Positions 41,104 to 61,323 of a stretch of 64,000 bases of DNA are shown piece after piece (positions within the stretch are counted from its first letter, which is position 1; each line of letters starts with the position of its first letter). A program made the position numbers and the translations under genes. The notes below the pieces were generated by a model. The model was not told where the DNA came from, did not search any database, and worked only from the letters and a program-made list of their open reading frames with translations. Source of the stretch: Gemmiger sp. An120 (GTDB taxonomy: Bacteria; Bacillota; Clostridia; Oscillospirales; Ruminococcaceae); assembly GCF_002160955.1 (NCBI RefSeq), contig NZ_NFLN01000012.1, positions 30,659 to 94,658 of the forward strand. Direction: 5' to 3'.

Positions 41104-41180
<77 letters not shown>

Positions 41181-51177: not shown

Positions 51178-51723
51178 ATGGCGCATTTTGAGACCCGGAC
51201 CGGCAGCGAGGAGATCTACCGCGGCCGCGTATTCACCGTAACCAAGGACACCGTGACCCTGGAAAACGGGGCCGAGGGCATCCGGGAGATCGTGCATCAT
51301 CACGGGGGCGCCTGCGTGGCGGCCCTGACCGAGGATAACCGGGTGTACCTGGTGCGGCAGTTCCGGTATGCGTTCGGGCAGGAGATCTGGGAGCTGCCCG
51401 CCGGCAAGCTGGAGGCGGGCGAAGACCCGCTGGAGGCCGCCAAGCGGGAGCTGGGCGAGGAAGCGGGCCTGGCCGCCGACCATTGGCGGGACCTGCACCC
51501 CATCTGGCCCACGGTGGGCTACTGCAGCGAGATCATCTATACCTATCTGGCCACCGGCCTGCATCCGGTGCCCATGCATCTGGACGAGGACGAGTTCCTG
51601 ACCCCGGAATCCCTGCCCCTGGACGAGGCCGTGGCCATGTGCCTGGACGGCCGCATCGTGGACGGCAAAACCATCGCCGCCCTGCTCAAGATCCAGGCGC
51701 TGCGGGCCAAGGGAGAGCTGTAA
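51178..51723 (+). CDS. Nudix hydrolase, ADP-ribose pyrophosphatase type
   Basis: A 181-aa protein with a complete Nudix box (GKLEAGEDPLEAAKRELGEEAGL) and the N-terminal ADPRase-type region (YRGRVFTVTKDTVTLENG). It would hydrolyse ADP-ribose to AMP and ribose phosphate. ATG at 51178, with AAAGGAG upstream; overlapping in expression with the CBS gene. Confidence 0.9.
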   Translation: MAHFETRTGSEEIYRGRVFTVTKDTVTLENGAEGIREIVHHHGGACVAALTEDNRVYLVRQFRYAFGQEIWELPAGKLEAGEDPLEAAKRELGEEAGLAADHWRDLHPIWPTVGYCSEIIYTYLATGLHPVPMHLDEDEFLTPESLPLDEAVAMCLDGRIVDGKTIAALLKIQALRAKGEL

Positions 51724-51861
51724 GGGCTGATATGGGGGGATAGAACCTATCCCCCCATCCCCCCCGGAACACATGGCCGAATTTCTTCGGCCATAGGGAA
51801 TGATATAACAAGGCCCGCGCAAACCGGAAACGGTCTGCGCGGGCCTTGCTTTGTATTTATC
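51724..51861. repeat. Cluster of strong hairpins
   Basis: Perfect inverted repeats follow one another after the Nudix gene: 51732-51758 (ATGGGGGGATA stem), 51773-51794 (ATGGCCGAA stem) and 51810-51847 (17-bp stem AAGGCCCGCGCAAACCG, one G-T). The third has CTTTG after it. At least one is a terminator; the rest look like a repeated palindromic element. They precede the structured repeat copy C. Confidence 0.55.
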
Positions 51862-52013
51862 CCCAGGGCCGAAGATATTCGGCCCTGATTTCCGGGGGCC
51901 GGGTCTGCAAAGCAGCCAAGGCCGCAGTGCGGCCTTGGACCGGCAGCGCGGTCGGCGCAGCCGGGCGGGCGCATCGTTGTTGCGCCCGCAGCGCCGGGGG
52001 GACGTTGTCCCCC
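51862..52013 (+). ncRNA. Structured repeat, diverged copy C
   Basis: Contains, in the same order as copies A and B, a GGUCUG-CAGCC hairpin with a 5-base loop (51902-51918), a 10-bp hairpin (CCAAGGCCGC, loop AGT, complement; 51917-51939), GGACCGGC, and a GGGCGCA…UGCGCCC hairpin near 51966-51988. Stem bases differ from A and B in paired fashion, as expected for a conserved RNA fold. The upstream end is bounded by an AGGGCCGAA hairpin (51865-51886). I call it ncRNA-like; a DNA repeat is possible. Direction relative to transcription is not settled. Confidence 0.45.
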
Positions 52014-52022
52014 CAGATCGGC

Positions 52023-52461: not shown

Positions 52462-54369
52462 TTATGCTTCGTCCGGGCCGGGCCCGGCGTTTGCCTGTTT
52501 GCGCCGCGCGGCGTGCAGCGCCACGCTGAGCACCGCGATGTCCGAGGGGGACACCCCCGGCACCCGGGCCGCCTGCCCCAGGCTTACCGGCCGGATACGG
52601 GCCAGCTTTTCCCGGGCTTCCAGCCGCAGGCCGGTGAGGGGCGCGTAGTCAAAATCCGGCGGGATGGGGGTGTTCTCCTGCTGCTGCACCTGCCGCACCT
52701 GCCGCTGCTGCCGCTCGATGTAGCCGGCGTATTTCAGCTCGGTCTCGATGCGTCCCGCCATGCGGGCGTCCACCCCCTCGCCCCGGCCGATGATGCCGGC
52801 CAGCAGCTCGTAGGTCACGCCCGGGCGCAGCAGCAGCTTGTCCGCTTCGCCCCCCTGAGGCGCAGGGGCCAGCCCCGCCGCCGCAAAGGGTTCGGCCAGC
52901 GCCGCGCCGGGAATCCGGGTGGCGTGCAGCCGGGCCAGCTCCGCCTGCTTGATGGCCATGTCCTGCTCAAACCGCGCCCAGCGGGCATCGTCCACCAGGC
53001 CGTATTCCCGGCCGATGGGGGTCAGACGCTCGTCCGCGTTGTCCTGGCGCAGGGTCAGCCGGTACTCGCTGCGGCTGGTCATCATCCGGTAGGGATCCAG
53101 CACCCCCTTGGTGACCAGATCGTCCACCAGGGTGCCCAGATAGCTGGACGACCGGGGCAGGATCAGCTGGCTTTTGCCCAGCGCGGCCCGGGCGGCGTTC
53201 AGCCCGGCCAGCAGGCCCTGGGCCGCAGCCTCCTCGTAGCCGCTGGTGCCGTTGAACTGCCCCGCCCCGTACAACCCGGCCACCGCCTTGCATTCCAGCG
53301 TGGCGGCCAGGGCGGTGGGGTCGATGCAGTCGTACTCGATGGCGTAGGCCGGGCGCATGATCTCCAGATGCTCAAACCCCACGATGCTGCGGTACATGGC
53401 CACCTGCACATCCTCCGGCAGGCTGCTGCTCATGCCCTGCAGGTACATCTCGTCGGTGTCCTCGCCGCAGGGTTCCACAAAGATCTGGTGCCGGTCCTTT
53501 TCCGCAAACCGCACCACCTTGTCCTCGATGGAGGGGCAGTACCGGGGCCCGATGCCCTCGATCTTGCCGCCGTACAGCGGGCTGCGGTGCAGGTTCTCCC
53601 GGATGATCCGGTGGGTCTCCGGGTTGGTCCAGGCAATGTGGCAGGCCACCTTGTTCCGCATGGGGGTGCGGGTCAGAAAACTGAAGGGCTGCAGCAGCTC
53701 GTCCGGGTCGCCGGGCTGGCACTCCAGCTTGTCAAAATCAATGCTGCGCCGGTGTACCCGGGCCGGGGTGCCGGTCTTGAACCGGCGCAGCGGCAGGCCC
53801 AGGGCTTTCAGGCTTTCGGTCAGGGCGGTGGCGGCGTGCTGGCCGTCCGGCCCGCTGGGGTAGTCCGCCCCGCCCACAAAAATCTTGCCGCCCAGGTTGG
53901 TGCCGGTGGCAATCACCACACACTTTGCCCCATAGTACCCGTCCAGACGGGTGCGCACCCCGGTAACATGGCCGTTTTCGGCCAGGATGTCGGTCACCTC
54001 CGCCTGTTTCAGTTCCAGGCCCGGCGTGCGCTCCAGAAACAGCTTCATATAATCGTGGTAGCGCCGCCGGTCGGTCTGCACCCGCAGGCTGTGCACCGCC
54101 GGGCCCTTGCCCCGGTTGAGCATCCGGCTCTGCAGATAGGTGGCGTCCGCCGCCAGGCCCATCACACCGCCCAGCGCGTCCACCTCCCGCACCAGATGGC
54201 CCTTGGCGGTGCCGCCGATGCTGGGGTTGCAGGGCATATTGCCGATGCCGTCCAGGCTCAGGGTAAACAGCCCGGTGTGCGCGCCCAGCACCGCCGCCGC
54301 GTGGGCGGCCTCGATGCCGGCGTGGCCCGCGCCGATCACGATCACGTCAAAATCTCCCAGATGGATCAC
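52462..54369 (-). CDS. mnmG: tRNA uridine-5-carboxymethylaminomethyl synthesis enzyme MnmG
   Basis: A 635-aa FAD enzyme with the dinucleotide-binding [10 protein letters not shown] at residue about 13, [12 protein letters not shown], and the [11 protein letters not shown] motif. With MnmE it installs the cmnm5 group at U34 of tRNAs. It lies 15 bases after mnmE, same strand, as in many Firmicutes. Length is normal. Confidence 0.96.
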
Positions 54370-60207: not shown

Positions 60208-60283
60208 AGGGGCACCTCATAGACGGCGGGGCATTGACAAACGGGCCCCGGGGTGGTATATCGGATACATATTCTCTGTGGAG

Positions 60284-60556
60284 GGATGCGGCTGCGAGGT
60301 GAATCGGCCCGCTCAGAGGGCCGATGAGCCCGCAGACGCCCCTCTTACCCAGCGGACGGGCGAGAAGGTGGGCGGGGGCCCGGACCCGGTGGGTCCGGGG
60401 TTCCGGGTCTGCGAAGCAGCCAAAGCCCCGGTGGGGCTTTGGACCGGCGAAACGGCCCGCGAAGCGGGACGGGCGCATTGTTTTTGCGCCCGTAGTTTTC
60501 GCAGGCCATTTATCCCGCCCCCGTATCGATCGGGAGCGGGCGGTACGCACAGCCTT
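60284..60556 (+). repeat. Structured 273-bp repeat, copy A
   Basis: Same length and order of elements as copy B (61051-61323), about 93 percent alike by eye. Hairpins in order: AUCGGCCC/GGGCCGAU, CCCGGACCC/GGGUCCGGG, a GGUCUG-CAGCC hairpin, CCAAAGCCCC/GGGGCUUUGG, CCCGC-GAA-GCGGG, GGGCGCA/UGCGCCC, and CCCGCCCCCG/CGGGAGCGGG. It fills most of the 373-base gap between mutY and the ybaK-like gene. A 13-base direct repeat TGGAGGGATGCGG occurs at 60279-60291 and 60567-60579, bounding the copy. Confidence 0.8.
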
Positions 60557-60580: not shown

Positions 60581-61069
60581 ATGTCGGTGGAAGTGGTACG
60601 GGCGTATTTGACGGAAAAGGGATTCGGGGACCGGGTGCTGGAATTTACAGAGAGCAGCGCCACGGTGGCGCTGGCGGCCCAGCGGCTGGGCTGCGAGGAG
60701 GCCCACATCGCCAAGACCCTGAGTTTTGAAACGCCGGAGGGCTGCGTGCTGATCGTGGCCGCCGGGGACGCGAAGGTGGACAACGCGAAGTACAAGGCGA
60801 TGTTCCACACCAAGGCGAAGATGGTGCCGGCCGACCAGCTGGAGGAAAAGGTGGGCCATCCGGCGGGCGGGGTGTGCCCCTTTGCGCTGAAGGACGGGGT
60901 GCGGGTGTTCCTGGACGAGTCGCTGCGGCGGTTTGATACCATCTATCCGGCGGCGGGCAGCGCCGCCAGCGCGGTGCGCCTGTCCTGCGAAGAACTGACC
61001 GCCTGCGCGGACGGCAATGCCCAGTGGGCGGATCTGTGTAAGGGCTGGGGGGATGCGGCTGCGAGGTGA
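60581..61069 (+). CDS. ybaK: YbaK/ProX-type aminoacyl-tRNA deacylase
   Basis: A 162-aa protein of the YbaK/INS family: HIAKTLSFET with the catalytic Lys, ADQLEEKVGHPAGGVCPFAL and DESLRRFDTIYPAAGSAASAVRLS. These enzymes hydrolyse mischarged tRNAs. ATG at 60581 after GGAGG; a longer frame upstream runs through repeat copy A and is rejected. The last seven codons and stop lie inside repeat copy B, so the C-terminal GGDAAAR may be repeat-derived. Confidence 0.85.
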   Translation: MSVEVVRAYLTEKGFGDRVLEFTESSATVALAAQRLGCEEAHIAKTLSFETPEGCVLIVAAGDAKVDNAKYKAMFHTKAKMVPADQLEEKVGHPAGGVCPFALKDGVRVFLDESLRRFDTIYPAAGSAASAVRLSCEELTACADGNAQWADLCKGWGDAAAR

Positions 61070-61323
61070 ATCGGCCCGCTCAGAGGGCCGATGAGCCCGC
61101 AGACGCATCCTTTACCTAGCGGACAGGCGAGAAGGCGGGCGGGGGCCCGGACCCGATGGGTCCGGGGTTCCGGGTCTGCGAAACAGCCAAAGCCCCGGTG
61201 GGGCTTTGGACCGGCGAAACGGTCCGCGAAGCGGAACGGGCGCATCGTTGTTGCGCCCGTAGTTTCCGCAGGCCATTTATCCCGCCCCCGTATCGCCCGG
61301 GAGCGGGCGGCACGCACAGCCTT
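61051..61323 (+). repeat. Structured 273-bp repeat, copy B
   Basis: Direct repeat of copy A at the 3' end of the ybaK-like gene. It has the same seven hairpins; the fifth is UCCGC-GAA-GCGGA where copy A has CCCGC-GAA-GCGGG, a paired change. The stop codon of ybaK is at its 5' edge. Fills most of the 320-base gap to the asnS terminator. Confidence 0.8.

Follow-up and report, generated by a model that had tools for sequence, protein, structure and literature searches.

A dispersed two-domain palindromic repeat in Gemmiger and its relatives that may be a non-autonomous mobile DNA element

Several described kinds of small bacterial repeats and transposon ends come close, in some respects, to the element considered here. 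Rickettsia palindromic elements are short (~150 bp), and many of them lie in frame inside protein genes (PMC10969869); the REP palindrome measures 20-40 bp (PMC3733652); the PARCEL is an amphipathic repeat of 25 residues (PMC2996958); and in the IS200/IS605 family a guide tetranucleotide located 5′ of a palindrome selects the cleavage site by base-pairing (PMC8266576), all four descriptions being those given in the accessible portions of the respective papers. The element described here was recognized from copy C, in an intergenic region of Gemmiger sp. An120, within a window of 64,000 nucleotides (the whole stretch of DNA that was analysed). We consider it rather probable that the copy C module is a mobile DNA element that is non-autonomous and depends on an enzyme supplied in trans, which would act on its folded single strand.

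Copy C lies in the gap between two convergent genes, one of which ends at position 51723 and presumably encodes a Nudix-like protein (this name, like those of the YbaK-like and Tn916-type genes, is our assumption from the window translations), while the other encodes 140 amino acids and has its stop from 52023. The protein encoded by the former is 98% identical to that of the nearest named contig, from uncultured Gemmiger BRZ_NC_bin37. The 299-bp gap as a whole forms a single near-palindrome (51724-52022, not assigned to a strand), with the stop codons of the Nudix-like gene (+) and the 140-residue ORF (-) at its ends, inverted arms of 48 nt that are 79% complementary, and the 94-base core set into the right arm. 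On the left, a G-run hairpin, ATGGGGGGATAG-AAC-CTATCCCCCCAT (51732-51758), gives the core-less form of the arm and is followed by a GGCC hairpin (51773-51794), both read from the sequence. In the middle, inverted-repeat comparison delimits an 18-bp terminator-like hairpin (51809-51848) whose sequence is not kept between copies, and for which one terminator-like match was found against 0.5 expected in shuffles. The mirror-image hairpins, likewise read from the sequence, follow on the right, GGCC at 51865-51886 and the G-run hairpin GGGGGGAC-GTT-GTCCCCCC at 51996-52014. Between these two lies the core module on the + strand (51899-51995), as defined by profile, covariation and RNAalifold; the conserved unit is thus narrower than the 51862-52013 span given in the original prediction. 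It is made up of two predicted three-way-junction domains. In domain 1 (51899-51943, +), the stem P1 (51899-51904 with 51939-51943) is built around the hairpins H1 (51905-51915) and H2 (51916-51938), and in domain 2 (51945-51995, +), P2 (51945-51949 with 51991-51995) is built around H4 (51952-51964) and H5 (51966-51988). Against dinucleotide shuffles, the predicted fold of copy C (105 nt) has a z-score of -4.0 and that of the intergenic region (307 nt) one of -14.1. The repeat had initially been matched to no known family, and this still holds: at gathering scores, the sole Rfam match in the window is a tRNA gene (41107-41180, -), and a search with E-value thresholds returned only matches far below their gathering scores.

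The module is dispersed through Gemmiger. In the window's genome (G000, 99.87% complete) and three others of the genus (G001, G002 and G003), BLAST with a 105-nt query gave 25, 24, 11 and 11 matches with 40 candidates per genome scored, and an iterated profile applied to the stretches around these matches delineated 69 cores or part-cores (25, 23, 11 and 10), of which 63 were complete and 59 were aligned, four being dropped (three with a 1-base insertion and one truncated). For the 59 aligned cores, RNAalifold returned, unaided, P1 enclosing H1 and H2 and P2 enclosing H4 and H5; the two domains are alike, each with a short stem that closes a triloop hairpin and a longer hairpin. Pairs were counted on 55 distinct rows at 36 paired positions (1980 cells), with 500 shuffles and with slid structures as controls, and since the Gemmiger copies are related the shuffle counts are not probabilities: 97.1% of the cells are paired, as compared with 87.4% in shuffles (0 of 500 as high) and 32-43% in slid structures, changes on both sides occur at 20 of the 36 pairs (12.0 in shuffles) and in 222 cells (69.2 in shuffles), and the number of further standard pair types is not above that of shuffles, 458 of 500 reaching it. 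Many H1 and H4 hairpins resemble d(GCGNAGC), which forms a DNA hairpin of unusual stability. Tandem arrays with a period of 94 nt are present as well, with three units in G001 and two in G003. Three incomplete copies (L153, L155 and L159) comprise about one domain, some resembling products of recombination between H1 and H4. In G000, contigs C33, C49, C50 and C28 start inside or close to a core or a tandem core array (L162, L163, L144 and L147), and at the place matching C33 and C49, G001 has three tandem units (L118). Given that contigs begin in or near cores, the repeat may therefore break assemblies.

Two further copies in the window, A (60279-60556, +, core 60403-60495) and B (61046-61323, +, core 61170-61262), are subfamily II elements and share 94% identity across 278 nt. 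The observation that drew attention to copy C, namely that two hairpin positions had changed together with their partners, is correct, both changes being compensated: H2 reads CCAAAGCCCC-GGT-GGGGCTTTGG in copies A (60420-60442) and B (61187-61209) and CCAAGGCCGC-AGT-GCGGCCTTGG in copy C (51916-51938), the loop differing too. The neighbouring hairpin, which had been said to keep its stem, does so only when drawn with a 5-nt loop; if H1 is drawn with the four-pair stem shown by the family (CTGC/GCAG), its closing pair is a C-A mismatch in copy B, and among the 59 cores this pair is broken twice, here and in the G001 ortholog of this copy. Copy B (61046-61069 of the window) also gives the presumed YbaK-like gene its stop codon and final residues (...ADLCKGWGDAAAR), and in G003, without copy B, that gene ends ...ADLCKDWQP. 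The original prediction further read the repeat as a conserved RNA family dispersed through the chromosome. This reading is partly supported, in that the fold is kept by compensatory change and the copies are indeed dispersed, while action as RNA finds no support. Unpaired changes in the stems do occur, but are rare (2.9% of cells), and the repeat is protein-coding in a relative (likely Faecalibacterium), with no such case seen among the Gemmiger cores.

Cores are present at some sites and absent from the matching sites of sister genomes. Between G000 and G001, where matched flanks are 91-99% identical, 14 cores of G000 had both flanks on one fetched stretch of G001, and 10 of them were present and 4 absent; in the opposite direction, 15 cores of G001 were likewise comparable, of which 10 were present in G000 and 5 absent. 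At one such site (L116/L138), a core in G001 corresponds to TAT between two G-runs in G000, and G001 also holds a subfamily II frame without a core. The site of copy A lacks, in both G001 and G003, a stretch that includes the core; copy B is present in G001, and its site in G003 is taken by another frame with a partial core. At one orthologous site (locus 2) the whole intergenic frame differs and the adjoining genes match, a replacement that gene conversion could explain as well as insertion. We infer that the direction of change in Gemmiger was gain and not loss.

A covariance-model search of genomes of the family, with strict filters, found the core in 12 of 297 genomes and 6 of 126 genera, four of the 12 being Gemmiger. 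The figure of 12 genomes is probably an undercount, because the model scores the copies of genome G172 weakly. The core of genera g58, g25 and g54 is set in another frame, whose ends hold CATAAGAAAAC or a sequence close to it; at five loci of these genera (L177, L178, L183, L184 and L199), a longer palindromic frame with CATAAGAAAAC in its inverted ends contains one or two cores. G172 (genus g81) is by inference a Faecalibacterium, because F. prausnitzii is the name given for one relative of its excisionase and because one of its copies is found, with the same flanks, in phage FP_Toutatis. BLAST detected 16 copies in G172, and core-only matches occur in at least 14 of the 31 genomes of its genus that were searched. 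In the alignment of these Faecalibacterium-type copies (38 rows), for which the structure was named by us after viewing the sequences, 97.8% of cells pair, as compared with 95.2% in shuffles and 38-51% in slid structures, and the number of further standard pair types is above that of shuffles (12 of 500 reach it); RNAalifold found H2, H4 and H5 in this alignment, and not P1 or P2. The idea that the flanks of Faecalibacterium-type copies generally form palindromes was set aside: the mean duplex energy is -19.6 against -15.5 (sd 5.1) for swapped flanks, but the loci include many orthologs, and just 5% of the copies lie lower than the 5% point for swapped flanks. Three loci of this type (L290, L293 and L295) do lie inside clear palindromes.

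Related copies are also found inside genes. In G172, a gene that we take to be DUF188-type, its relatives being labelled PF02639 and 'YaiI (UPF0178 family)', contains a 90-nt (30-residue) in-frame insert that is a related copy. The insert is absent from all ten loci at which both flanks were found (in ten genomes), an eleventh locus holding one flank only. The empty site reads ACCATT-TTGATT and the filled one ACCATT-CGCG...ACAAGTT-CTGATT, the insert sitting 3′ of ATT at a site compatible with a target-site duplication of 0-3 bp. Among the 120 best relatives listed for this protein, coverage of the query is at least 98% for 5 and ~80% for most others, as expected if the insert is rare. Excisionases related to that of G172 (labelled PF09035, 'excisionase') hold one to three in-frame units of ~31 residues each, and the ten considered among 120 listed include no empty form, all ten holding a whole or part unit. 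In a recombinase-like gene the two sides of the insert are in different frames, and insertion is therefore not always in frame. Phages carry related copies as well: eleven phage records, two of them FP_Toutatis (a phage of F. prausnitzii), and in addition one IMG/VR contig. A copy with the same flanks is shared among phage, IMG/VR contig and bacterial genomes (L302, at FP_Toutatis 53800-53884, with L299, L224 and L259), and in the flank of the copy that G172 shares with FP_Toutatis a tRNA-like sequence lies just upstream. A composite element combining a Faecalibacterium-type core with shared further flanks recurs in several places in several genomes (L222, L223, L269, L270, L274-L276 and L278). 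Searches for the Gemmiger-type pattern in viral contigs, and for the window core in plasmids, gave no match.

How should a fold that is maintained by compensatory changes in a dispersed sequence be interpreted? One reading is that of a structured RNA, in which the core would be transcribed, mostly in 3′ untranslated regions, its fold would bind a protein or set the 3′ ends or stability of mRNAs, and copies would have spread because they are useful. The strong covariation is what such an RNA would show, and so is the gene context. The flanking genes, predicted on either side for 63 cores, are convergent in 35 cases and divergent in 3, as compared with 55 and 91 among 296 background gaps longer than 150 nt; these counts come from our own gene predictor, with orthologs counted separately, the core gaps included in the background and six cores at stretch ends left out. 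The right-hand gene reads towards the core in 48 of the 63, ending 15-45 nt from it in 37 of these 48. This position is suggestive of 3′ ends, and would fit an RNA 3′-end element; it would fit just as well a mobile element tolerated only at sites where the harm is small. Against a structured RNA speak the presence or absence of cores between sister genomes, the copies inside genes in relatives and the lack of an Rfam match. The stem mismatches favour no clear strand. In Gemmiger stems, 42 G-T cells in 10 columns stand against 34 A-C cells in 11, with single columns holding 29 of the 42 and 23 of the 34, and in Faecalibacterium-type stems 49 G-T cells in 10 columns stand against 9 A-C cells in 7, a single column holding 32 of the 49, so that in neither type of copy are the strands separated. 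For rough orientation, 20 of the 302 bracketed pairs are G-U in 14 tRNAs from the fetched stretches; their zero A-C says little, as ARAGORN brackets may omit mismatches. On balance we think a structured RNA unlikely. Still less likely, in our opinion, are passive palindromes whose arms would be kept complementary by intrastrand template switching (quasipalindrome correction) together with gene conversion, without mobility or selection for the fold. Two observations would suit such a process, the joint change of the H2 arms in Gemmiger with almost no intermediates (547 Watson-Crick, 1 G-T and 2 A-C cells), and the frame at locus 2, which differs as a whole beside matching genes. However, P1 and P2 covary although each joins strands that are separated by 35-50 nt and enclose other hairpins, one related copy interrupts a gene for which empty sites exist, and the Faecalibacterium-type copies can be fitted to the same arrangement of two domains.

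The preferred reading, a mobile element moved in trans, would have the module move as single-stranded DNA, with the central four-base strand of P2 acting as a guide that pairs with the terminal four bases, as in the ends of IS200/IS605 elements. In Gemmiger, the module sits in a palindrome arm near stop codons; it is probably tolerated there as a component of a terminator region, and any effects on mRNA would be a side effect. In P2, the tetranucleotide 5′ of H4, at the centre of the unit, pairs with the unit's final bases. It is fully complementary in 49 of the 59 Gemmiger cores (GGGC/GCCC in 26, GCGC/GCGC in 14, AAAC/GTTT in 8 and ACGC/GCGT in 1) and imperfect in 10; among 33 parsed Faecalibacterium-type copies (six of the 39 were not parsed), 30 are paired (GAAC/GTTC in 24, GAGC/GCTC in 5 and AAGC/GCTT in 1) and 3 are unpaired. 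P1 in the same 33 copies is TCGC/GCGA in 13, CCGC/GCGG in 6, TCAC/GTGA in 2 and TTGC/GCAA in 1, and imperfect in 11. The likeness of the P2 covariation to IS200/IS605 guides is no more than a lead, since several carriers have no Y1 transposase. Genomes G001-G003, G172 and G190 lack Y1_Tnp (G002 and G190 being 75% and 81% complete), as do four copy-carrying single-contig genomes of the genus of G172 (G298, G310, G311 and G321), and PF01797 is present in one of the four Gemmiger genomes, in six of the eight other carriers and in 11 of 31 genomes of the G172 genus. A Y1 (IS200/REP-type) transposase as a necessary resident partner was rejected on these grounds for the current genomes. The 14 Y1 loci gave only chance-level matches of 12-21 nt to core sequences and no profile match. 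IS110 was also discarded as a partner, occurring in 3 of the 12 carriers, 2 of them over the cut-off. A narrower version of the mobile reading, its probability contained in that of the whole, is a miniature IS200/IS605-type element in which the central tetranucleotide guides cleavage at the terminal one. The covarying tetranucleotide just 5′ of H4 that pairs with the end of the unit recalls the guides 5′ of palindromes that select cleavage sites in IS200/IS605 (PMC8266576, in its accessible portion), and the insert in the DUF188-type gene follows ATT and shows no long duplication. Yet some of the carriers without a Y1 transposase are well covered, the left flank matches the guide in part only (GTTC precedes 13 of the 33 parsed Faecalibacterium-type copies), and two hairpins instead of one lie between guide and end, and we judge this version quite unlikely, somewhat more so than the structured RNA. 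What counts against the mobile reading more generally is that no transposase is tied to the core, that the core ends show no inverted repeats in the alignments (the outer frames do have inverted ends), that the DUF188 site leaves room for a duplication of no more than 3 bp, that the direction of change in Gemmiger is not polarised, and that P2 is imperfect in the 10 cores given above and neither P1 nor P2 is returned by RNAalifold for Faecalibacterium-type copies. At its boldest, the mobile reading would place the repeat in a new class, that of self-templated mobile DNA. The protein-free unit of 94 bases would then consist of one three-way-junction domain in duplicate; its central four-base guide would pair with the ends of the unit and in this way specify them, and the unit would nest in palindromes, multiply in tandem and enter genes in frame across Oscillospiraceae and their phages. 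We regard this as doubtful, at about the same level as the structured RNA.

Faecalibacterium and Gemmiger are common gut genera, and an undescribed mobile repeat that alters gene ends and protein N-termini would explain some of the differences between strains as well as assembly breaks. The repeat would be a tractable system for the spread of protein-free elements and, should the guide-like helix act in the way proposed here, would offer another case in which base-pairing chooses DNA ends. It also calls for caution, since compensatory base changes are by themselves no proof of RNA. In titles and abstract openings of the papers listed from the open-access literature on palindromic repeats, MITEs, REPs, RNA motifs and phage repeats of Faecalibacterium and Ruminococcaceae, and on Rickettsia palindromic elements, no description of the repeat was found. 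Faecalibacterium is not mentioned in the accessible main text of PMC8040213 (candidate structured RNAs of human microbiomes) or PMC3733652 (palindromic repeats), nor is such a repeat described in the accessible parts of two papers on Faecalibacterium phages (PMC5883640 and PMC11792537). The core repeat could be among the thousands of RNA candidates in PMC8040213, of which some are palindromic. The repeat is likely an undescribed member of the non-autonomous palindromic mobile repeats.

Compared with these, the repeat shares with REP/BIME elements and their TnpA-REP (RAYT) transposases an extragenic palindromic nature, inverted pairs around a spacer, a location near gene ends and a high copy number, and a folded single strand would be the substrate in both. 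It differs from REPs in having no GTAG tag 5′ of a short palindrome (the tetranucleotide 3′ of H5 is GTAG in 10 of the 59 cores, GCAG in 46, TCAG in 2 and GCAA in 1), in occurring in several carriers that have no Y1 transposase, and in its two-domain fold of 94 nt, as against the 20-40 bp reported for REP palindromes in the part of PMC3733652 cited above. Like MITEs, it is short, non-coding, dispersed and polymorphic between genomes, and its outer frames in g58, g25 and g54 have inverted ends holding CATAAGAAAAC; unlike MITEs, the core lacks both a terminal inverted repeat and a clear target-site duplication, and no parent was found for it. With IS200/IS605 ends it has in common a tetranucleotide 5′ of a hairpin that is complementary to the terminal tetranucleotide, whereas its two hairpins between guide and end, its single central guide, the lack of kinship with the 14 Y1 loci and the carriers without a Y1 gene set it apart. 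PARCELs are likewise palindromic repeat coding elements found in tandem in proteins, with a unit of 25 residues according to the portion of PMC2996958 available, in contrast to ~31 here. Finally, the 90-nt in-frame insert in the DUF188-type gene and the one to three units in excisionases, both seen in relatives and not in the window's genome, liken the repeat, by description, to Rickettsia palindromic elements, from which it is distinguished by a unit that is a 94-nt two-domain fold and that lies also inside other repeat frames and in tandem arrays.
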